A DNA stretch of 38,923 nt from Pseudoselenomonas ruminantium (GTDB taxonomy: Bacteria > Bacillota > Negativicutes > Selenomonadales > Selenomonadaceae), in contig NZ_FOQK01000029.1 of assembly GCF_900113715.1 (NCBI RefSeq), forward strand, positions 1 through 38,923. Reading direction: 5' to 3'. The notes beneath the pieces were generated by a model, which saw only the letters and a program-made list of their open reading frames with translations, made no database searches and was not told the DNA's origin. Below, piece after piece: positions 1,411 to 9,684 of this stretch (its first letter is position 1; every line of letters begins with the position of its first letter). A program made the position numbers and the translations under genes.

Positions 1411-2649
1411 TTGCAGACAAAAAATAAAGCCAATCTGGCTTTAGGCATCAGTGCCGCCGGTTTCATCGGAACGATGGCAGCCGGCGGCACTGGCTTTTTG
1501 CCAGGTCTTTTGCATCACGGATTTTTGGCCGCGACGATTGGCGGCCTGGCCGACTGGTTTGCCGTGACAGCTATCTTCCATAAACCACTCGGCATATCCT
1601 ACCGTACCGATATCCTGCGCCGCAACCGCCCGCGCATCATGGACGCTATCGTGACGTTTGCCAGCGATGACCTGTTGAGCACGGAGAATATCATGCGGGT
1701 CATAGAGGAGCAGGATACGGCACGGCTGCTCGTCGAGTATCTTGCGTACCGCGGTGGCCGGGAGCGCGTGCATGAGGTGGTGGAGGCAGCACTCCTGCGG
1801 GGCGTGGCCGATATTGATACGGCTGCGGTGGCGGCGGAGCTGTCGCCAGCCATCCACGAGGGCCTGCAGTCGTTTGCCTTGGAGGATGTCCTGGCGGATC
1901 TGCTGAAGATGATGGCCGAGGAGGAGCATTCGGTGCGGATACTGGAAAGCCTGCTGGCCATCAGCCAGCGGCTGCTGGCCTCTGAGCCGCTGCAGCAGGT
2001 GCTGCTGGCGCGCATCACGAGCCTGCGCCAGCAGTATGAGAAGGATTCGGCGGGGCGGGCCTTTGTGCTGGCCTCGCTGGATATCACCGATGAGCGTATA
2101 CTGGCGATGCTGCTGGAGCAGGCGCAACAGCAGCTGCGGATGATGCTGGCTGAGCCGACGGAAAGCTATGCCAGCGTCAAAGCGGGACTGGAAACCATGC
2201 TGCGGGCGCTGAGCCAGGATACGCGGCTGCGGGCTATCCTGCAGGAACGCAAGGAGCAGCTGCTGGAACAGTTTGATATCGAGTCCGGGCTGGCGCGCTG
2301 GCTGGAGGTGAATCTCAAGGGAGAGGATCCCTTTTGGCTGCCGCAGGTGCATGGATTCATCGATGCGCGCATCGATGACTTCATGCATTCGGAACCATGG
2401 CAGCGGCGTTTCGACCAGTTCGTCAAGCAGTTTGTCGAAGACGAGCTGACCAAGCATCATGACCTGATTCCGGGGATCATCCGCGAACGGCTCGCGGAGT
2501 TCTCCGATGATGAGCTGGTGGCGTTTGTCGAAAACAAGGTGCAGGATGATTTGCAGATGATCCGCATCAATGGCTCGCTGGTCGGTTCGCTGGTCGGCAT
2601 GGGGCTGTATCTGGTGGTCATGGTGCTGGAAAGGATGTGGGGGCTATGA
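1411..2649 (+). CDS. DUF445 family membrane protein (copy 1)
   Basis: This 412-residue protein belongs to the DUF445 (YheB/YjiN-like) family, whose biochemical role is unknown. The family signature GGLADWFAVTAIFHKPLG is at about residues 43-60, directly after an N-terminal hydrophobic stretch. The middle is a long, charged, helical region, and the C-terminus ends in a hydrophobic helix containing GSLVGSLVGMGLYLVVMV, so both ends probably sit in the membrane with a helical body between. The start is TTG, preceded by GAGGTG. The stop overlaps the start of the next gene, a paralogue. Function is not predictable from sequence. Confidence 0.85.
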   Translation: MQTKNKANLALGISAAGFIGTMAAGGTGFLPGLLHHGFLAATIGGLADWFAVTAIFHKPLGISYRTDILRRNRPRIMDAIVTFASDDLLSTENIMRVIEEQDTARLLVEYLAYRGGRERVHEVVEAALLRGVADIDTAAVAAELSPAIHEGLQSFALEDVLADLLKMMAEEEHSVRILESLLAISQRLLASEPLQQVLLARITSLRQQYEKDSAGRAFVLASLDITDERILAMLLEQAQQQLRMMLAEPTESYASVKAGLETMLRALSQDTRLRAILQERKEQLLEQFDIESGLARWLEVNLKGEDPFWLPQVHGFIDARIDDFMHSEPWQRRFDQFVKQFVEDELTKHHDLIPGIIRERLAEFSDDELVAFVENKVQDDLQMIRINGSLVGSLVGMGLYLVVMVLERMWGL

Positions 2650-3953
2650 GGTGGCCGGATTGGAACAAGGCCGATAAGACACTTCTCCTGGCTTTGCTGA
2701 TCTTCTTTGTGGCACTGGTGCTGCATCTTCAGTATCCGGACAAGGCTGCCGCCGATGCCTTCTTGTTCTGTGCAGAGGCAGCGCTGGTCGGCGGCATCGC
2801 GGACTGGTTTGCCGTGACGGCGATCTTCCGCAAGCCACTCGGCTTCCCGTATCATACGGCCATCCTGCCGCGACGCCGGCAGGCGTTCATCCAGGCCTCG
2901 GTGACGATGGTGCAGAAGGAGTTCTTCTCGCGGCGCAAGGTGTTCCGGCATCTGGAGCGCCTGCATATCATGCCGATGCTGCTCGGCTGGCTGGCAGAGC
3001 CGGAGACGGAGAACCGGCTGGTCCTGCGCCTCGTTCATTTTGCCCGCGATTTTCTCTTGAAACAGGATGCGCGGGCGCAGGCAAAGGTGATCGCAGACAG
3101 ATTCCGCGGTACGCTGGATGCCCTTGAGCCGGAGCCCTTCTTTGCGCTTTGGGGCGGCTGGCTGCGGCAGACGGGCAAGGATAAGGATTTCTTGAGCCGT
3201 GTGGCCGTGTATATCCGCGGGCGCGTGGATGGCGAGGATACCCGCAAGGCTTTGGCGGCTATGTTTGAGCGTTTCGGCGAGGAAAAGGTGCAGGATAATT
3301 CCCTCGGCGCTTTCCTGATGGGGCTGGCCCGGGCCGTAGACCTCGTCAACTACGAGGAGGCTGCAGAGCTTGTGCAGCAGCAGATCCTGGCCATGCTCGA
3401 CGACCTGGCGCAGAAGGATTCAGAGCTGCAGCGCGAGATGCTCCAGCTATTCTATGAAAAGGCCGCCGAGCTCAATCAGGAGCCCTCGTTCCATCGTCTG
3501 GTCCATGAGCTCAAAGACCGGCTGGTCAAAGATCTGCCGCTGGAGGAGGCGGTATTCCGCACGCTGGACCATCTGCATCGTCATTTCGCTGAGGACAAGG
3601 CGCGCCATGTCGATCCGCTGGCCGAGCATATGCCGGCGCTGCGGACACGGCTCGAGGAGATCCTGCGGGCGGAGTACCGGCGCATGCTGCAGCTGGTTGA
3701 GAAGGATGAGGAGCTTCGTCATACGGTGGGGCAGTTCATCTATGATCTGATTGCCCGCACGGCTTTGCATGCCCAGACGCTCGTCGGCGTCATCGTCACG
3801 AATGTCCTGTCGCGGCTGACGGATGAACAGCTCAATCATCTGGTCTATGACAAGGTGGAGCCGGATCTTCTGTGGATCCGCATGAACGGCTCGATTGTCG
3901 GGGCGGGAATCGGACTGGTGCTCTATGGGCTGATGGCCCTCTGTGCCCCGTGA
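2646..3953 (+). CDS. DUF445 family membrane protein (copy 2)
   Basis: A 435-residue paralogue of the preceding protein. It has an N-terminal hydrophobic helix (about residues 12-30), the diagnostic GGIADWFAVTAIFRKPLG motif at about 49-66, a long charged helical middle, and a C-terminal hydrophobic helix with NGSIVGAGIGLVLYGLMA. The ATG at 2646 overlaps the upstream TGA as ATGA, which points to translational coupling; a GTG at 2637 is an alternative start. The tandem arrangement suggests the two proteins act together, perhaps as a heteromer, but this is inference. Function unknown. Confidence 0.85.
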   Translation: MRWPDWNKADKTLLLALLIFFVALVLHLQYPDKAAADAFLFCAEAALVGGIADWFAVTAIFRKPLGFPYHTAILPRRRQAFIQASVTMVQKEFFSRRKVFRHLERLHIMPMLLGWLAEPETENRLVLRLVHFARDFLLKQDARAQAKVIADRFRGTLDALEPEPFFALWGGWLRQTGKDKDFLSRVAVYIRGRVDGEDTRKALAAMFERFGEEKVQDNSLGAFLMGLARAVDLVNYEEAAELVQQQILAMLDDLAQKDSELQREMLQLFYEKAAELNQEPSFHRLVHELKDRLVKDLPLEEAVFRTLDHLHRHFAEDKARHVDPLAEHMPALRTRLEEILRAEYRRMLQLVEKDEELRHTVGQFIYDLIARTALHAQTLVGVIVTNVLSRLTDEQLNHLVYDKVEPDLLWIRMNGSIVGAGIGLVLYGLMALCAP

Positions 3954-3980: not shown

Positions 3981-4009
3981 TTGACAATCATTATCCATGG
4001 CTATATAAT
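3981..4009 (+). promoter_or_regulatory. Consensus sigma-A promoter of metal-transport locus
   Basis: TTGACA (3981-3986), a 17-base spacer and TATAAT (4004-4009) match the housekeeping consensus exactly. Transcription would begin near 4016, about 90 bases before the small protein at 4109. A FUR-family box overlaps the -35 and the spacer, so a strong promoter appears to be held under repression. Confidence 0.85.
3982..3996. promoter_or_regulatory. Fur-like operator box
   Basis: TGACAAT-C-ATTATCC matches 12 of 14 informative positions of the 7-1-7 FUR-family consensus TGATAAT-N-ATTATCA. It covers the -35 box and part of the spacer of a consensus promoter, the classic position for repression by a metal-bound FUR-family protein. 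Fur, Zur and PerR sites are similar, so the metal (Fe, Zn or Mn) cannot be assigned from sequence alone. Confidence 0.65.
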
Positions 4010-4108
4010 AAAGACGGTTGTTATGTCAGGGATTTGCCTGATTTACACATAATACGCGAAATGAAGCTGTTTCGTGTCAAAAGCGATTATGTTTGAGGAG
4101 GAAGAGTT

Positions 4109-4315
4109 ATGTTTCAGAAAACGGATTTTTGGATCGGCCTTGCAGTAGGTGCGGTTGCTGGTGTATTCGGCTATCGTTTCATGCAGGAGCGTCAGCAGCA
4201 GATGGCTGCTTTCCAGCAGGCTGCACCGGCAGGTGAGCTGCCGCTGGCTGAGCTTCAGCGTCAGAAAGAGGAGCTTGAGGATCTCATCGCTGCTCAGGAA
4301 GCCAAAAAGAACTGA
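4109..4315 (+). CDS. Small single-helix membrane protein (YtxH/PacL-like layout)
   Basis: A 68-residue protein with one glycine/alanine-rich hydrophobic helix (about residues 8-24, containing GLAVGAVAGVFGYRF), then a Gln/Ala stretch and a Glu-rich helical tail ending AAQEAKKN. GAGGAGG-type pairing (4095-4102) sets the ATG at 4109. It is the first gene after the Fur-like promoter and is followed by its own terminator, so it may be made in excess over the downstream ATPase. The layout (one helix plus acidic tail, beside a P1B ATPase) resembles mycobacterial PacL scaffold proteins, but the PacL C-terminal metal-binding motif is not seen. A partner role for the ATPase is inference. Confidence 0.7.
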   Translation: MFQKTDFWIGLAVGAVAGVFGYRFMQERQQQMAAFQQAAPAGELPLAELQRQKEELEDLIAAQEAKKN

Positions 4316-4334
4316 TTTTTCCTTTTAGGAAATG

Positions 4335-4364
4335 GAGACTGCCAGCATTGGCAGTCTCTTTGTG
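4335..4364 (+). terminator. Intergenic terminator within metal locus
   Basis: GAGACTGCCA (4335-4344) and TGGCAGTCTC (4349-4358) form a perfect 10-bp stem with a GCAT loop, followed by TTTGTGT. It lies 20 bases after the small protein and 36 before the next gene. No second clear promoter follows, so partial read-through would give a high ratio of small protein to ATPase. Confidence 0.75.
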
Positions 4365-4399
4365 TAAACGGGGAGCACGAGGCAGAAAGAGGTTAGGTT

Positions 4400-4699
4400 T
4401 TGAGTATATTTGACAGTTTGCAGATACCGACGAATTCGCTGGATATCTTCATCCGTTCGGTGGAGATTTCGGCTTACATTCCGGGCAGGGTGCGCTTGCA
4501 CAGCCGGAATCTCGTGGATAATCCGGGCCTGGAGCAGCAGGTCCGGACGCAGCTCGGGGCGTTTGCCGAAATCGATAAGGTAGAGACGAGTACGGTCACT
4601 GGCTCGATACTGATCCAGTACCAGCCAGAGCGGCTGCGCAGGAATGCGGAACTCTGCAAGGTAGAACAATATATCATGACACATGCAAGGAGGAAATGA
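4400..4699 (+). CDS. HMA-like (HMA_2) domain protein, stand-alone
   Basis: A 99-residue soluble protein that looks like one ferredoxin-like HMA-type module. A first strand reads AYIPGRVRLHSR (about residues 26-37), followed by a helix and a second half, VETSTVTGSILIQYQP (about 61-76). The metal-binding CxxC of classical HMA domains is absent; the only cysteine lies near the C-terminus. The start is TTG at 4400 with AGAGG seven bases upstream. The next gene follows after one base, behind AAGGAGG, and similar modules occur in the next two proteins. It may dock on or regulate the ATPase rather than carry metal through thiols. Assignment is by pattern, not by search. Confidence 0.65.
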   Translation: MSIFDSLQIPTNSLDIFIRSVEISAYIPGRVRLHSRNLVDNPGLEQQVRTQLGAFAEIDKVETSTVTGSILIQYQPERLRRNAELCKVEQYIMTHARRK

Positions 4700-4700
4700 C

Positions 4701-5309
4701 ATGTCGATTGTATCGGGATTTATGATGGGAGCGGCCATTGGCAACAACATCCGTCAGATGTTTACGGGTGAGGCGCCGATGCCGGCAAAGCCTGCCGTGC
4801 AGACAGCACCGCTGGCCTTGGTCGCGGCTGTGCCGGGACGCCGCCGTTATCGTGCTGCTGTGCTTGCACCTGAGCTTGCGGCTCTGCTGGAGGAAAAGCT
4901 CAGCCAGCTGGCATTTTTGACGTCCTTTGCGGCGAACAGCACGAGCGGCAGCCTGCTGTTCACCTATGATCCTGCTGATGAGCGCAAGATGGATGCGCTG
5001 GCACTTTGGCTCGAGCGTTATGTCTTTACGCGCCCGCAGGCTAAGACTGAGGTGCAGGAGATTGAGGAGAGTGCAGCAGCTGCTGAGGCCCATGCTGGCA
5101 GCCTGACGCGCAGTGTGCGCAATATGGCGCGGGCCTTCAGTGCCTGGATCAAGGCACATACGTCGGGCATCTTCGACATCAGTTCACTGGCTTCGTGTAT
5201 TTTTGCCCTGCGTGGTTTGCGTAAGATGCTGCTTACGAAGACGTATCCATCGGGAGCACAGATGCTCTGGTGGGCATTGGCGTTGATGAGAGGATGGCGG
5301 ACGGTATGA
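4701..5309 (+). CDS. HMA-like domain protein with membrane segments
   Basis: A 202-residue protein. Residues 4-20 form a Gly-rich hydrophobic N-terminus (GFMMGAAIGNNIRQMF), similar to that of the small protein at 4109. Residues about 35-115 form an HMA_2-like module: VAAVPGRRRYRA, then FAANSTSGSLLFTYDP, without CxxC. Residues about 155-200 are hydrophobic and probably membrane-embedded (ISSLASCIFALRGL and MLWWALALM). AAGGAGG (4687-4693) sets the ATG at 4701. The stop overlaps the start of the ATPase, so the two are probably translated in a coupled way. This is likely a membrane-anchored accessory subunit of the pump; its exact job is unknown. Confidence 0.65.
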   Translation: MSIVSGFMMGAAIGNNIRQMFTGEAPMPAKPAVQTAPLALVAAVPGRRRYRAAVLAPELAALLEEKLSQLAFLTSFAANSTSGSLLFTYDPADERKMDALALWLERYVFTRPQAKTEVQEIEESAAAAEAHAGSLTRSVRNMARAFSAWIKAHTSGIFDISSLASCIFALRGLRKMLLTKTYPSGAQMLWWALALMRGWRTV

Positions 5310-7408
5310 TGTACCAAAGCTGCTATATCAATCTGCAGGCACGATTGAGCCGTGAGCAGCGTGTGCTGCTGGCTGCGCGTATCCGCAGCTTCCGTCAGGT
5401 AAAGGCGGTGTCCGTGGGAGAGCAGCGCATCCAGCTCTGGTATCGCGGCATCCTGCCGTATCGTGCCATCCAGCAGCTGGCAATCGCTGCAGTCGAGGAC
5501 GCGCATGAGGCAGCAAGAAAACCGGCCGATTTGCTCAAGGAGTATCAGCGTGAGGCCTTGTTCTCGCTGGCCAGCTTTGCTGCCATGGAAATTCTCAAGC
5601 GGACATCGCCGCAGCTGTTCCTGAGCATGAAGGCTTTGCGCAGCCTGCTGGTGCTTGGCATTGCGCGCAACTTTATCCGCAATGGTATCGCTGGCATGGT
5701 CAAGGACCGTCAGCCCAATGCCGATACGCTGACGGCGACAGCAGTTATTGCCTCGGTGCTGGCTGGCAAACCAGAGTCGAGCCTCACTTTGCTCGCGCTG
5801 TCCAATGGTGCGGAAATGCTTACAAGCTATGCTGCTGAGCGTGCCCGGACGCATATTTCGGGGCTCTTGTCGTTGGATCAGCACTATGTCTGGCTCGTAG
5901 AAGGCGATGTCGAGCGCAAGATTCCGGTTGAGCAGGTAAAAGTCGGCGATGTGATTTCCGTACACACAGGTGAGAAGATTGTCGTTGATGGCCGCGTGCT
6001 CGATGGCAATGCGGCGGTCAATCAGTCGTCGATCACGGGTGAGTCGAATCCGGCGATGAAGAAAGTGAAATCGCCAGTCTATGCGGGCAGTGTCGTTGAG
6101 GCAGGCAGCCTGACGATTGCCGTCGAAAAGGTCGGCAAGGATACGTCGCTGGCGCATATCGTGCATCTCGTCGAGGAGGCCCAGACGCGTAAGGCACCCG
6201 TGCAGAATTTCGCAGATCAGATGGCCAATCTGCTCGTGCCGGTATCGTTTATCGGTGCTGCTGTGGTCTATGGCGCTACGCGCGACTGGCAGCGGGTGTT
6301 GAACCTGCTGTTCATCGATTTCTCCTGCGGCTTGAAGCTTTCGACAGCTACGGCAATCTCAGCGGCTATCGGGGCAGCGGCCAAACGCGGTATCCTCGTC
6401 AAGGGCGGCAACTACATTGAGTCGCTGGCTGAGACGGATACGGTGGTGCTCGATAAGACCGGTACATTGACGGTCGGTATTCCGCAGATTTCCTTTGTCA
6501 AGACGGCACATGATGTCAAAGAAAAGGAAGTTATCCTGCTCGCGGCATCGGCAGAGCAGCACTCGGTGCATCCGCTGGCTGTAGCTATCCAGAAATATGT
6601 CAAGGAAAAGGGCTGGCAGACGCCGCACCACAAGTCGACGAAAACCATCGTTGCGCGTGGCATGGAAGCTGTTGTACCAGCCTTTGCGGATAGCAAGGGT
6701 GGTTTTGTCCGCGTTGGCAGCCGCAAGTTCCTGATGGAAAACGGCATTGAAGATACGGAGCAGCTGGCCTTGGGATTGACGAGCAAGAATCTCTTGTATG
6801 TTGCCTGCGATGATCGTCTGCTCGGCGTTATCGGCATCGAGGACCCCATCCGTCCGGCTATGAAGAAGACGCTCAATCAGATGCGCCGCTATGGTATCGA
6901 CGAGATCGTCATGCTGACGGGCGACTCCAAGCCAGTGGCGGCTGAGGTCGCTGCCAAGATGGGCATCGATTCGTATTATGCGGAGATCCTGCCCGAGGAT
7001 AAATCCGACTATGTCAATAAGCTCAAGCAGCGTGGCACGGTCATGATGGTGGGCGATGGCATCAATGATGCGCCGGCGCTGGCCTTTGCTGATGTCGGCG
7101 TCTCGCTGGGAGGCCGGCAGACGGATATCGCTGCCGAATCCTCGGCAGTCACGATCCACTCGGAGGATCCGCGCCGTCTTATGGAAGCATTGCAGCTGGG
7201 GCGTCGGACGATGTCGCTGGTGCAGCAGAACTTCATGGCGACAATCCTGGTCAACTCGGCGGCTATGCTGCTCGGAGCGCTCGGACGCATCAATCCTGTC
7301 TGGGCAGCAGCCATTCACAACACGGCAACGCTGGCAGTGGTGCTCAATAGCTGCCGTATCCTGCGTCCGTCCAAACGGGAATTTTTGCCACGTCATCGGC
7401 GTGCCTAA
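5306..7408 (+). CDS. P1B-type metal-transporting ATPase, non-canonical F-S-C motif
   Basis: This 700-residue P-type ATPase should move a transition metal across the cytoplasmic membrane using ATP. Visible elements: an N-terminal HMA-like module without CxxC (about 1-65), membrane helices (about 85-175), actuator TGES (244-247), phosphorylation motif DKTGTLT with D383, SVHP in the nucleotide domain (420-423), MLTGD (536-540), GDGIND (583-588) and a C-terminal helix pair with HNTATLAVVLNS. In the metal-binding membrane helix the usual CPC or SPC is replaced by F339-S340-C341, without proline (IDFSCGLKLSTATAI). The start ATG (5306) overlaps the upstream stop. The Fur-like box suggests iron, manganese or zinc handling; direction and metal are not decidable from sequence. 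Confidence 0.9.
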   Translation: MMYQSCYINLQARLSREQRVLLAARIRSFRQVKAVSVGEQRIQLWYRGILPYRAIQQLAIAAVEDAHEAARKPADLLKEYQREALFSLASFAAMEILKRTSPQLFLSMKALRSLLVLGIARNFIRNGIAGMVKDRQPNADTLTATAVIASVLAGKPESSLTLLALSNGAEMLTSYAAERARTHISGLLSLDQHYVWLVEGDVERKIPVEQVKVGDVISVHTGEKIVVDGRVLDGNAAVNQSSITGESNPAMKKVKSPVYAGSVVEAGSLTIAVEKVGKDTSLAHIVHLVEEAQTRKAPVQNFADQMANLLVPVSFIGAAVVYGATRDWQRVLNLLFIDFSCGLKLSTATAISAAIGAAAKRGILVKGGNYIESLAETDTVVLDKTGTLTVGIPQISFVKTAHDVKEKEVILLAASAEQHSVHPLAVAIQKYVKEKGWQTPHHKSTKTIVARGMEAVVPAFADSKGGFVRVGSRKFLMENGIEDTEQLALGLTSKNLLYVACDDRLLGVIGIEDPIRPAMKKTLNQMRRYGIDEIVMLTGDSKPVAAEVAAKMGIDSYYAEILPEDKSDYVNKLKQRGTVMMVGDGINDAPALAFADVGVSLGGRQTDIAAESSAVTIHSEDPRRLMEALQLGRRTMSLVQQNFMATILVNSAAMLLGALGRINPVWAAAIHNTATLAVVLNSCRILRPSKREFLPRHRRA

Positions 7409-7413
7409 AATAG

Positions 7414-7474
7414 AAAAAAAGCGCTGATAAAAGCCTGCGGTTTGCTTGCCGCAGGCTTTTTCAGCGCTTTTTTT
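7414..7474. terminator. Bidirectional terminator, ATPase / chemoreceptor
   Basis: An A-rich stretch, GCGCTGA, then AAAAGCCTGCGG pair with CCGCAGGCTTTT, TCAGCGC and a T-run. The long stem has A- and T-runs at its two ends, so it can stop the ATPase transcript on the plus strand and the converging chemoreceptor transcript on the minus strand. Confidence 0.9.
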
Positions 7475-7498: not shown

Positions 7499-9562
7499 TC
7501 AGATACCCATTTCGATATTGTGGATAATGGTCGTGAGCTTGTCCATCTCGGCAGCTGTGCGCTCGTTGATGACTTCAAGGGCTTTGATGGACTGCGTGGA
7601 TTTCTGGATGTGTGTAACACCTTCGTTGAGACTCTTGTGGAGATTCTTCATCTCCGTTGCAAAGTGTTCATCGAACTCGTTGATCTTATCCTCGAAGTCC
7701 TTGTTGGCTGAGAGGATATTGTCGATTTCGGCGACGTCGTGCAGCAGCACTTTGATGGCCTCATCGGAAGTATGCAGGCTGGTCTGCGTATTTTCTGAGA
7801 GCTTGCGGACTTCCTGCGCGACGACTGAGAAGCCGCGGCCTGCCTCGCCGGCACGGGCTGCTTCGATGGCGGCATTGAGAGCCAGCAGGTTGGTCTGGGC
7901 GGCAATCTCGTTGATCATCTTCATGACATCGTCGATTTTCTGCGTGCTTTGGGAGAGCATGTCGAGTTTTGGCGTGATTTCGCGATTGCGCTCCGTCAGC
8001 TGATTGAAGAGACCATTCTGCTCATCGATACCGTTGGAGAGCTGCTTGATGGCTTCCTGGATGAGATCGACATCGCCGGACATGCGCATGATGGTCTGGA
8101 CGATGCCGGGCATCTTCGCCTGATAATCTTTGAACATATTGATGAGGTTGTCTTTGAGCACCTCGGTATGTTTCTGACGGTCGATGATGCGTTTGAAGAA
8201 GAACGCATTGCAGTCAGAATAGCTGCGGGCGAAATTATCGACATATGCGTCTGAGAATGACTGTCCTTCGGGCACATGGTAGAAGCAGATAGCAGTCAGT
8301 GTCTCATTGACATGCAGGCCGGCGATTTCGCCGAAGCTCGAGAAACCAGCGACAGGCACATCGTCGAAGAAGTCCATATGCTTGACTTCCTCGGGATAGC
8401 CGAGACGGCGCAGGATACAGTCATTGAGGATTGCGCCGATAGCCTTGGGCTTGTTGCTGGTATACGCGCGCAAATCGCGGGAAAGCGTGGTTTCGAGCGG
8501 CTGGCGTTTTAGCAGGTAAAGTTTTTCGCCGGTTACGACATCGCAGAAGAAACTGATGCGGTCATTGACATCATCGATGCCGGAAATCGTACGGATGAAG
8601 TCTTCGCCGTTGACATCGGTGGCAAAGGTATAGCCTTGCAGCTTCGTCTGCAGTTCCTGGGTGCTGCTGACGCCGAAATGGTCTTTGAGTGCTTCGATGA
8701 AAGAAACAGGCTCGCCGTTTGGCCCCTCGACGGTCTCGATATAGCGCAGGGCTGTATTGGCGCTGCCAACTGTGAAGACGTCGCCGGTGCGCTCGACAGC
8801 CTGCGATTTGAAGATGCCATAGCGATAGGCTTTCTTGAGACGGACCAGCGTGATGACCGCGTGGTTCTCAAGGCACTGCTTGTCATCATAAATGTAAGTA
8901 TGGGTAAAGGTCATGTCGCCAGCTGCGCTGCCGCCGATAAATGGAATCGGGAATTTGCCGGATTCGAACAATGCTTGCAGGACAAAGGTCTCGCAGGCCG
9001 AAGCACCGTCGATGTAGACCATGGCAAAGGAATGGGCAACGCTGAGACGGAACGGCGTCGGCAGCTTGTCGATTTCGCGGCGGATGGCGGCGACGCGGTC
9101 GTTGACGGTCATCTCGACAGAACCGCGGCGCAGGTCATCATTCGGCAGCGGGATGCTCATAATGTGCAGTGATTCGATCATGCGGTTGGAGAATGCCTGC
9201 AGCAAGACCTTGGCACGGCCGTCCGGTGCCTCACAGTAGAGCGAGCGGCTGCCCTGCGGACGGCAGAGCTCACCGGAAGTCGTCATGAGGATGACCTTGG
9301 TCGTGGAGGGGACTTCACGTTTGATTGTTTGCGCGACTTCCGGGATGCTGAGGTCTGGCGAGACAAAGCCCATGATCAGGGCACAGCCCTCGGCGACATC
9401 GGCTAAATCCTTAAGACGTACTGCGGTAAGATCATTCTTACCGAGATAGGCGGTCTTAATGTCCTGCTGGGTGGAGGCAGCAGGGATGGATGGGGTTGCA
9501 TGGGAAGCTGCGGGACTCGCAGCTTCGGCTTTCTTCATGCCCGAAGAAAAAAGATTGATCAT
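7499..9562 (-). CDS. Soluble methyl-accepting chemotaxis protein with FIST sensor domain
   Basis: A 687-residue cytoplasmic chemoreceptor. The N-terminal half is a FIST_N/FIST_C ligand-sensing module (about 45-435, with [10 protein letters not shown] at 207-216 and [15 protein letters not shown] at 407-421). The C-terminal half is an MCP signalling coiled coil (about 480-687) whose hairpin tip, [20 protein letters not shown] (554-573), is intact and would bind CheA/CheW. I see no transmembrane segment, so it should sense an internal signal; FIST ligands are poorly known, with amino-acid-like small molecules proposed for the family. The start at 9562 is chosen because AGAGGTG lies upstream; an in-frame upstream start adds 15 Cys-rich residues without a ribosome site. 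No other chemotaxis gene is in the window. Confidence 0.9.
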
Positions 9563-9684
9563 TTCTAAACACCTCTTTGTTTTATGACAGTCGTTACATG
9601 TTGACACTTGATGTGGACGGGCACATAGACTATCTTTATATTTAGTTTCGGCATGGAAAGTGAAAATCCTGCAACAGAAGACGT

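Follow-up and report, generated by a model that had tools for sequence, protein, structure and literature searches.

A four-gene operon behind a Fur-type box

The stretch of DNA analysed here (the window; 38,923 nucleotides [nt]) is contig NZ_FOQK01000029.1 of Pseudoselenomonas ruminantium (assembly GCF_900113715.1), whose genome comprises 3.1 Mb. It carries a predicted operon encoding a small protein with one membrane helix, two proteins of the HMA_2 family (A and B) and a P-type ATPase. We consider it rather probable that these genes specify an iron-repressed Fe(II) pump, a PacL- or FezA-like scaffold and thiol-free HMA_2 partners, which together would work like a ferrosome system. The features of the locus are the following (aa, amino acids):

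3981–4009, plus strand: sigma-70 promoter, TTGACA-N17-TATAAT, 12/12 matches to the consensus
3982–3996, plus strand: Fur-type box overlapping the −35 hexamer, 12/14 to TGATAATNATTATCA
4109–4315, plus strand: gene for the small one-helix protein, 68 aa, PacL/FezA-like plan, no Pfam family above the cut-off
4335–4358, plus strand: terminator-like hairpin directly 3′ of the small gene, arms GAGACTGCC and GGCAGTCTC, weak tail (TTTGTG)
4400–4699, plus strand: gene for HMA_2 protein A, 99 aa, TTG start, motifs PGRVR and TGSILI, without CxxC
4701–5309, plus strand: gene for HMA_2 protein B, 202 aa, with an N-terminal helix, an HMA-like domain (residues ~38–110) and C-terminal helices
5306–7408, plus strand: gene for the predicted P1B-6 ATPase, 700 aa counted from the ATG that overlaps the stop of the protein B gene
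5306–5515, plus strand: degenerate N-terminal HMA_2-like module of the ATPase, residues 1–70
7430–7464, plus strand: operon-ending hairpin with T-run (the terminator scan reports 7444–7456)

An earlier reading of the window from its letters alone (the sequence-only reading) had described a consensus promoter overlapped by a 12/14 FUR-family box, a one-helix protein, two HMA_2-like proteins and a P1B ATPase in a row, and three cysteine-free modules without CxxC. This description was confirmed in part. Promoter and box are as stated, and the gene assignments held: Pfam PF19991 matched both protein A (5.5e-13, 49.6 bits) and protein B (3.5e-23, 82.7 bits; cut-off 30 in either case), which are the sole two HMA_2 matches in the genome, and the ATPase has the catalytic motifs given below. 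Neither CxxC nor CxC occurs in any of the four operon proteins. The term cysteine-free went too far, as A and B contain one cysteine each (Cys86 and Cys166) and the ATPase four, one of which (Cys6) falls within its N-terminal module. Cys86 is situated just beyond the matched HMA_2 stretch of protein A, and Cys166 of protein B belongs to the helices that follow the modelled HMA-like domain.

The ATPase belongs to a clade next to that of fezAB-like pumps

The ATPase bears the catalytic motifs expected of a working pump (TGE at residue 244, DKTGT at 383, HP at 422, TGD at 538 and GDGINDAP at 583). Its fourth transmembrane helix (TM4) contains SCGLKLS at 340 and no CPC, and its last one (TM6) contains HNTAT at 671, of which H671 and N672 are invariant across 12 aligned ATPases of the same type (SCG). 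An HN motif in the last transmembrane helix is given as a hallmark of P1B6 ATPases (PMC9374683; this and the other papers denoted by PMC numbers are cited from excerpts of their text). Searching the literature for the SCGLKL motif in connection with P1B subfamilies returned nothing useful.

A scan of named genome contigs, from which 80 loci were kept of at least 585 confirmed, yielded pumps of the SCG and of an SCA type. In a tree of 40 rows, the SCG pumps (15 rows) and the SCA pumps (15 rows, one with an SCG-like motif) each formed a clade supported at 100/100, and the two were joined at 99/96. CtpC-like and CPC pumps fell outside the joint clade. A quick tree of 76 rows, thinned by about every second SCA row, concurs (24 SCG and 38 SCA-clade rows, together 97 by the SH-like approximate likelihood ratio test). 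The pump of locus L160 has an SCG-like motif, yet was placed in the SCA clade, so the motif is not a perfect clade label. The nearest named relatives of the window ATPase are Selenomonadaceae and Veillonellaceae records. Judged by its predicted protein sequence, the assignment of the window ATPase to the P1B-6 pumps is well supported.

The four genes are conserved together

A protein search of 151 family genomes found a match to the ATPase, at 60% identity or more, in 97 of them (a hand tally that counts fragments). In all 31 family loci that were fetched, the ATPase is accompanied by the small protein and by both HMA_2 proteins, and 30 of these loci keep the gene order of the window; in L053, the small gene follows the ATPase gene. 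As these loci were chosen by their ATPase, 31/31 shows conserved companions, not independent finds. The gene-neighbourhood check that the sequence-only reading had proposed thus found co-conservation, and the loss of gene order that was to count against that reading was not observed. L103 and L104, both on contigs that end early, yielded no small gene.

The cluster also recurs beyond the family: a Priestia plasmid (pBM400), a Fusobacterium record, a Planctomycetes bin and further lineages of Bacillota, Peptostreptococcaceae among them, carry it. The small gene is often last there, and the ATPase gene is often followed by a third HMA_2 gene. That of pBM400 (L081, Priestia megaterium; same SCG clade as the window) is ordered HMA2-HMA2-ATPase-HMA2-small protein; it has one HMA2 gene more than the window and the small gene at its end, and its annotation reads HMA2 domain-containing, cation-translocating and hypothetical proteins only. 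It adjoins an IS256-like transposase, a location which suggests that SCG-type clusters can be mobile. The other plasmid matches examined, besides those of Priestia, Fusobacterium and Rhodococcus, proved to be other P1B pumps; six rows drawn from them and from the own genome were used as outgroups.

Separate HMA_2 genes were present in 11 of the 12 SCG loci of the contig scan (the twelfth contig is cut short) and in 5 of the 67 loci of the SCA set (L106–L172, which includes L141 and L149, both other P1B types), and thus mark the SCG clade. Among 299 genomes of the phylum, 13 have an SCG pump (E ≤1e-150), five an SCA pump (at least 42% identity to that of L129) and none has both, cases too few to be taken as mutual exclusion. 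In the 151 family genomes, no SCA-type pump was seen; the best match to the L129 pump among those listed had 36% identity.

The HMA_2 modules lack CxxC and invariant metal ligands

Proteins A and B are homologous to each other (hhalign, 99.2%). The relation of the ATPase N-terminus to them is less direct. Pfam HMA_2 was found in 6 of 12 aligned ATPases, and the window ATPase gave no such match above the cut-off. When ATPase N-termini were compared with protein A by profile–profile alignment, the probability was 5.6% for five selenomonad members alone, 98.9% for six more distant, non-selenomonad members and 83.8% for all twelve; the N-terminus of the window ATPase can be aligned with the HMA_2 N-termini of relatives. 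Structure models were built from 12-row alignments for protein B and the ATPase N-terminus (for protein A, the evidence is the Pfam match). Both were predicted to fold as beta-alpha-beta-beta-alpha, protein B over residues 38–109 with the first strand in two pieces (predicted local distance difference test score [pLDDT] >90 over 41–110), and the ATPase over residues 4–70 (pLDDT 75–90 per block of ten). Structure prediction, which the sequence-only reading had named as a check, thus returned HMA-like folds and not unrelated ones. Its statement that the ATPase starts with such a module is borne out by the predicted fold, which is that of protein B, and by the N-termini of relatives, but not by Pfam or by the selenomonad N-termini.

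Residues 44–110 of protein B superimposed on ATP7B with a Z score of 8.3 and a root-mean-square deviation (rmsd) of 2.1 over 66 residues; for ATP7B and CopZ domains overall, Z was 7 to 8 and the rmsd 2 to 2.5. In the same list, unrelated ferredoxin-like folds such as RNA polymerase subunits also exceeded a Z of 7. As these score like HMA domains, the fold match of protein B alone is not decisive. Foldseek returned no PDB match for protein B under 0.001.

The likeness to CopZ and ATP7B lies in the predicted ferredoxin-like fold. Those proteins carry CxxC, whereas the HMA_2 proteins have PGRxR and TGS motifs instead, and CxxC is absent from all aligned rows (12/12, 11/11 and 12/12). This makes classical CxxC chaperoning unlikely, and agrees with the earlier statement that the modules are not classical metal chaperones. 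The invariant or nearly invariant residues of the HMA_2 proteins (G, R, P, T, L and Y in the domain; in protein B also D, P and W beyond it) include no histidine or cysteine, and the invariant positions belong to the PGRxR and TGS-like motifs, not to metal ligands. The conserved arginines suggest contact with acidic faces of a protein or of lipids rather than a metal site, and docking, gating or scaffold roles would fit these modules better than metal carrying.

The small protein and the hairpin behind its gene

The helix of the small protein contains GXXGY in 35 of 35 cases (the window and 34 relatives of its own group). It is followed in all of these by a charged tail resembling ELxxQKExLEDxIAA, and the proteins lack cysteine; that of the window contains no histidine either. 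Two such glycines (GXXG) are reported to be required for PacL clusters (PMC13043812). A ZapG-like match (0.0049) was under the curated cut-off and was set aside.

The hairpin downstream of the small gene is a feature new relative to the sequence-only reading. A hairpin with a T-rich tail begins no more than 36 nt past the stop of the small gene in 28 of 33 loci, compared with a mean of 4.5/33 in ten rounds of shuffling (L053 was excluded here and from the promoter-pattern count below because its small gene is located elsewhere). The stems vary among genera, both arms changing in step, as judged by inspection of the listing. The hairpin may serve as a leaky terminator, which would make the small protein the most abundant product of the operon.

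The Fur-type box and its distribution

The box at 3982–3996 matches the 19-mer consensus at 15/19 positions. When the upstream DNA was shuffled 100 times by dinucleotides, one shuffle reached 12/14. At two mismatches or fewer, the genome contains 22 such sites versus 7 for the reversed-pattern control, and it encodes three FUR-family proteins. Of 34 loci, the window included, 8 have a box that matches in 12 or more of the 14 positions, and 14 exceed the 5% level of the shuffles (∼1.7 expected); TTGACA falls within a Fur-like stretch in 9/33 loci, again including the window (a pattern drawn after the sequences had been seen, and without shuffle control). The loci of all these counts are not mutually independent. 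At 15 Fur-site loci that were read (L210–L224), one site precedes a ZnuA-like gene and another a gene for a FecCD-like permease (assigned by eye in both cases); the remaining ones have no clear iron link. On contig C11 of the same genome (L210/L226, at ∼115.8 kb), a gene for a ZnuA-like metal-binding protein (by eye) and one for a FUR-family regulator flank a 13/14 Fur-family box, perhaps as a Zur-type unit.

The iron link and the comparison with ferrosome systems

FeoB was encoded within the fetched flank of 9 of 49 SCG loci (0.39 expected; one contig appears twice among the 49, as L037 and as L093) and of 14/67 loci of the SCA set (0.47 expected), the expectation being the own-genome rate of two FeoB per 3.1 Mb. 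The nine SCG cases represent ∼7 lineages, with FeoB on either side of the operon. In the own genome, the two full FeoB genes are on contigs other than that of the window. The presence of FeoB near both clades indicates that both accompany ferrous-iron uptake, and is the best clue to the substrate; the iron link of the operon is well supported. Two SCA-set loci, L109 and L170 (from records with the titles Deltaproteobacteria and Deferribacterales), hold a CPC-type and an SCA-type P1B pump in one cluster. An HMA_2-like gene and additional small genes are also part of it, and the second (SCA) pump is immediately followed by a FeoA-domain gene.

A handful of species are known to form ferrosomes, and FezB is reportedly a P1B-6 ATPase. 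Locus L129 (record titled Clostridioides difficile HC132, G+C 0.30) encodes a DUF6110 protein of 131 aa (1.5e-23) directly upstream of an SCA ATPase, the gene of the former ending 42 nt before that of the latter. Proteins of L111 and L128 also match DUF6110; in L128, FeoB and a FUR-family protein are encoded in the vicinity. By layout and domain, the L129 pair is like fezAB, which is described as CD630_05910-05920 with the FezA gene followed by the FezB gene (PMC11651100), and as Fur-repressed and needed for ferrosomes (PMC12574912). In Rhodopseudomonas, six fez genes are given, RPA2333-2338 (PMC12016538).

The window operon is like the fez systems in that a P1B-6 ATPase, reportedly the class of FezB, adjoins a small one-helix membrane protein, and in that FeoB neighbours occur in the SCA clade with the fez layout as well as in the SCG clade. 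Fur control is reported for fez clusters, and a predicted Fur-type box precedes the window operon. It is unlike them in several respects. The C. difficile-titled ATPase belongs to the SCA clade, whereas that of the window belongs to the sister SCG clade (each at 100/100); the partner there is a DUF6110 (FezA-type) protein, whereas the small protein of the window falls outside DUF6110 despite its similar plan; and SCG clusters add two or three HMA_2 proteins. None of the four operon proteins matched DUF4405 (FezC-type) in Pfam. As neither the SCA clade nor DUF6110 applies, the operon was not filed as a fez cluster. The best reading of the SCG-cluster operon is that of a distinct variant related to ferrosome systems, its novelty being provisional: among the matches listed, no paper on the variant was found by title or opening of the abstract, but few subscription papers were covered, and it may well be in print. 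A search for the HMA2 domain with P-type ATPase and Fur returned nothing useful among the matches listed.

A ferrosome-like mechanism and its rivals

In the mechanism that we propose, Fur would leave its box when iron is low, and the operon would be expressed. Many transcripts would stop at the hairpin, so that the small protein is made in excess; it would self-assemble in the membrane via its GXXG helix, and its charged tail would hold the ATPase in the way that PacL1 holds CtpC. The HMA_2 proteins, as cousins of the ATPase N-terminus, might dock on the pump or the platform as thiol-free assembly or gating modules. Upon return of iron, the pump would move Fe(II) from the cytosol into a membrane-bound store. 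That this store is an internal compartment is suggested by analogy with the sister fez systems.

Several observations weigh against such a function. The window ATPase lies outside the SCA clade, and the composition of the operon differs from that of SCA systems, 62 of the 67 loci of the SCA set being without separate HMA_2 genes. The small protein of the window matches neither DUF6110 nor DUF1490 in Pfam; its likeness to FezA and PacL is thus one of plan, homology not having been detected. Five more distant SCG members (L094, L098, L099, L101 and L102) lack GXXG at the corresponding place, as judged by eye. The hairpin of the window has a weak tail and was not listed by the general terminator scan. 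A Fur-type box beyond the 5% shuffle level is missing from 20 of the 34 loci; within two mismatches, no such box was found at either FeoB region of the own genome (best 9/14 and 11/14). L129, for its part, has no FeoB in its flank. A complementary distribution with ferritin was also sought. Strong ferritin matches (E ≤1e-10, a cut set after the gap had been seen; sets tallied by hand from tables) occurred in 18 of 97 genomes with the ATPase versus 25 of 54 without it (P = 6e-4), but in 18/96 versus 5/27 when genus g13 was left out. Compensation by ferritin was therefore rejected as the effect of one genus, and no complementary distribution remains.

The main rival is an efflux platform in the plasma membrane, in which the small protein would scaffold the pump in foci for expulsion of Fe(II), zinc or another metal, without an internal compartment; we regard this as a serious contender, although an improbable one. 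It is modelled on PacL1-CtpC, a mycobacterial pair of a DUF1490 protein and a P1B6-like ATPase that is described as a zinc efflux platform (PMC9374683), and the small protein indeed has the PacL plan, that is, one helix with GXXG, a charged tail, and a gene beside that of the pump. A DUF1490–CtpC-like pair (L083) is placed just outside the P1B-6 clade. This pump has CPC in TM4, whereas that of the window is of the SCG type, without CPC and inside the clade. PacL1 has a metal-binding tail of histidine and aspartate (PMC13043812), whereas the small protein of the window, which has no DUF1490 match, has no histidine or cysteine and no such C-terminal motif. Furthermore, a Fur-type box and recurrent Feo neighbours would have an exporter turned on when iron is lacking, which is hard to understand unless the iron is stored. 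The L083 pair is carried on the Rhodococcus plasmid pDK1.

That the HMA_2 proteins are carriers or sensors which bind Fe(II) by non-thiol ligands and pass it to the pump would agree with the HMA-like fold predicted for protein B and with the succession of two or three homologous modules that SCG loci show. The lack of any invariant histidine or cysteine and the conserved arginines, which point to acidic protein or lipid contacts, render it unlikely. Slightly less credible still is the interpretation given in the sequence-only reading, which assigns docking or regulation to the thiol-free modules, as units of a largely undescribed machine for metal export or sensing. Its observational side, namely conserved companions, absence of CxxC and homology of A and B (99.2%), was upheld, and the interpretation as a whole is supported in part. 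Evidence for sensing was not obtained, and export is a poor fit with the Fur-type box and the Feo neighbours, which favour storage of Fe(II). The machine is also less undescribed than claimed, as the pump is of a described class, P1B-6, in a clade sister to that with the fezAB layout, and the product of the first gene is PacL/FezA-like in plan.

Neighbouring genes

Two adjoining genes for DUF445 membrane proteins (1411–3953; E 1.7e-59 and 2.9e-59) end 27 bases upstream of the operon promoter and are apparently a separate unit. On the other side (7499–9607, minus strand), a protein of 702 aa is encoded which, by eye from its translation, combines a FIST-type sensor domain with a signalling end like that of methyl-accepting chemotaxis proteins.

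Implications

Beyond the ferrosome-like reading of the window operon, we tentatively propose, as a possibility rather than as a likely outcome, that SCG-type clusters, frequent among Selenomonadaceae and of scattered occurrence in other phyla, give rise to an iron compartment or membrane platform of a distinct kind. Arginine-marked, thiol-free HMA_2 proteins would be its structural or gating parts, and a conserved leaky terminator would provide the one-helix scaffold in excess. Should the operon function in the manner of ferrosome systems, storage of iron by means of a P1B-6 pump would be common in a large family of anaerobes. Comparison of SCG with SCA systems would then separate a core, the pump and its one-helix partner, from an addition, the HMA_2 modules, and the operon would offer a defined test bed for HMA_2 domains without CxxC.

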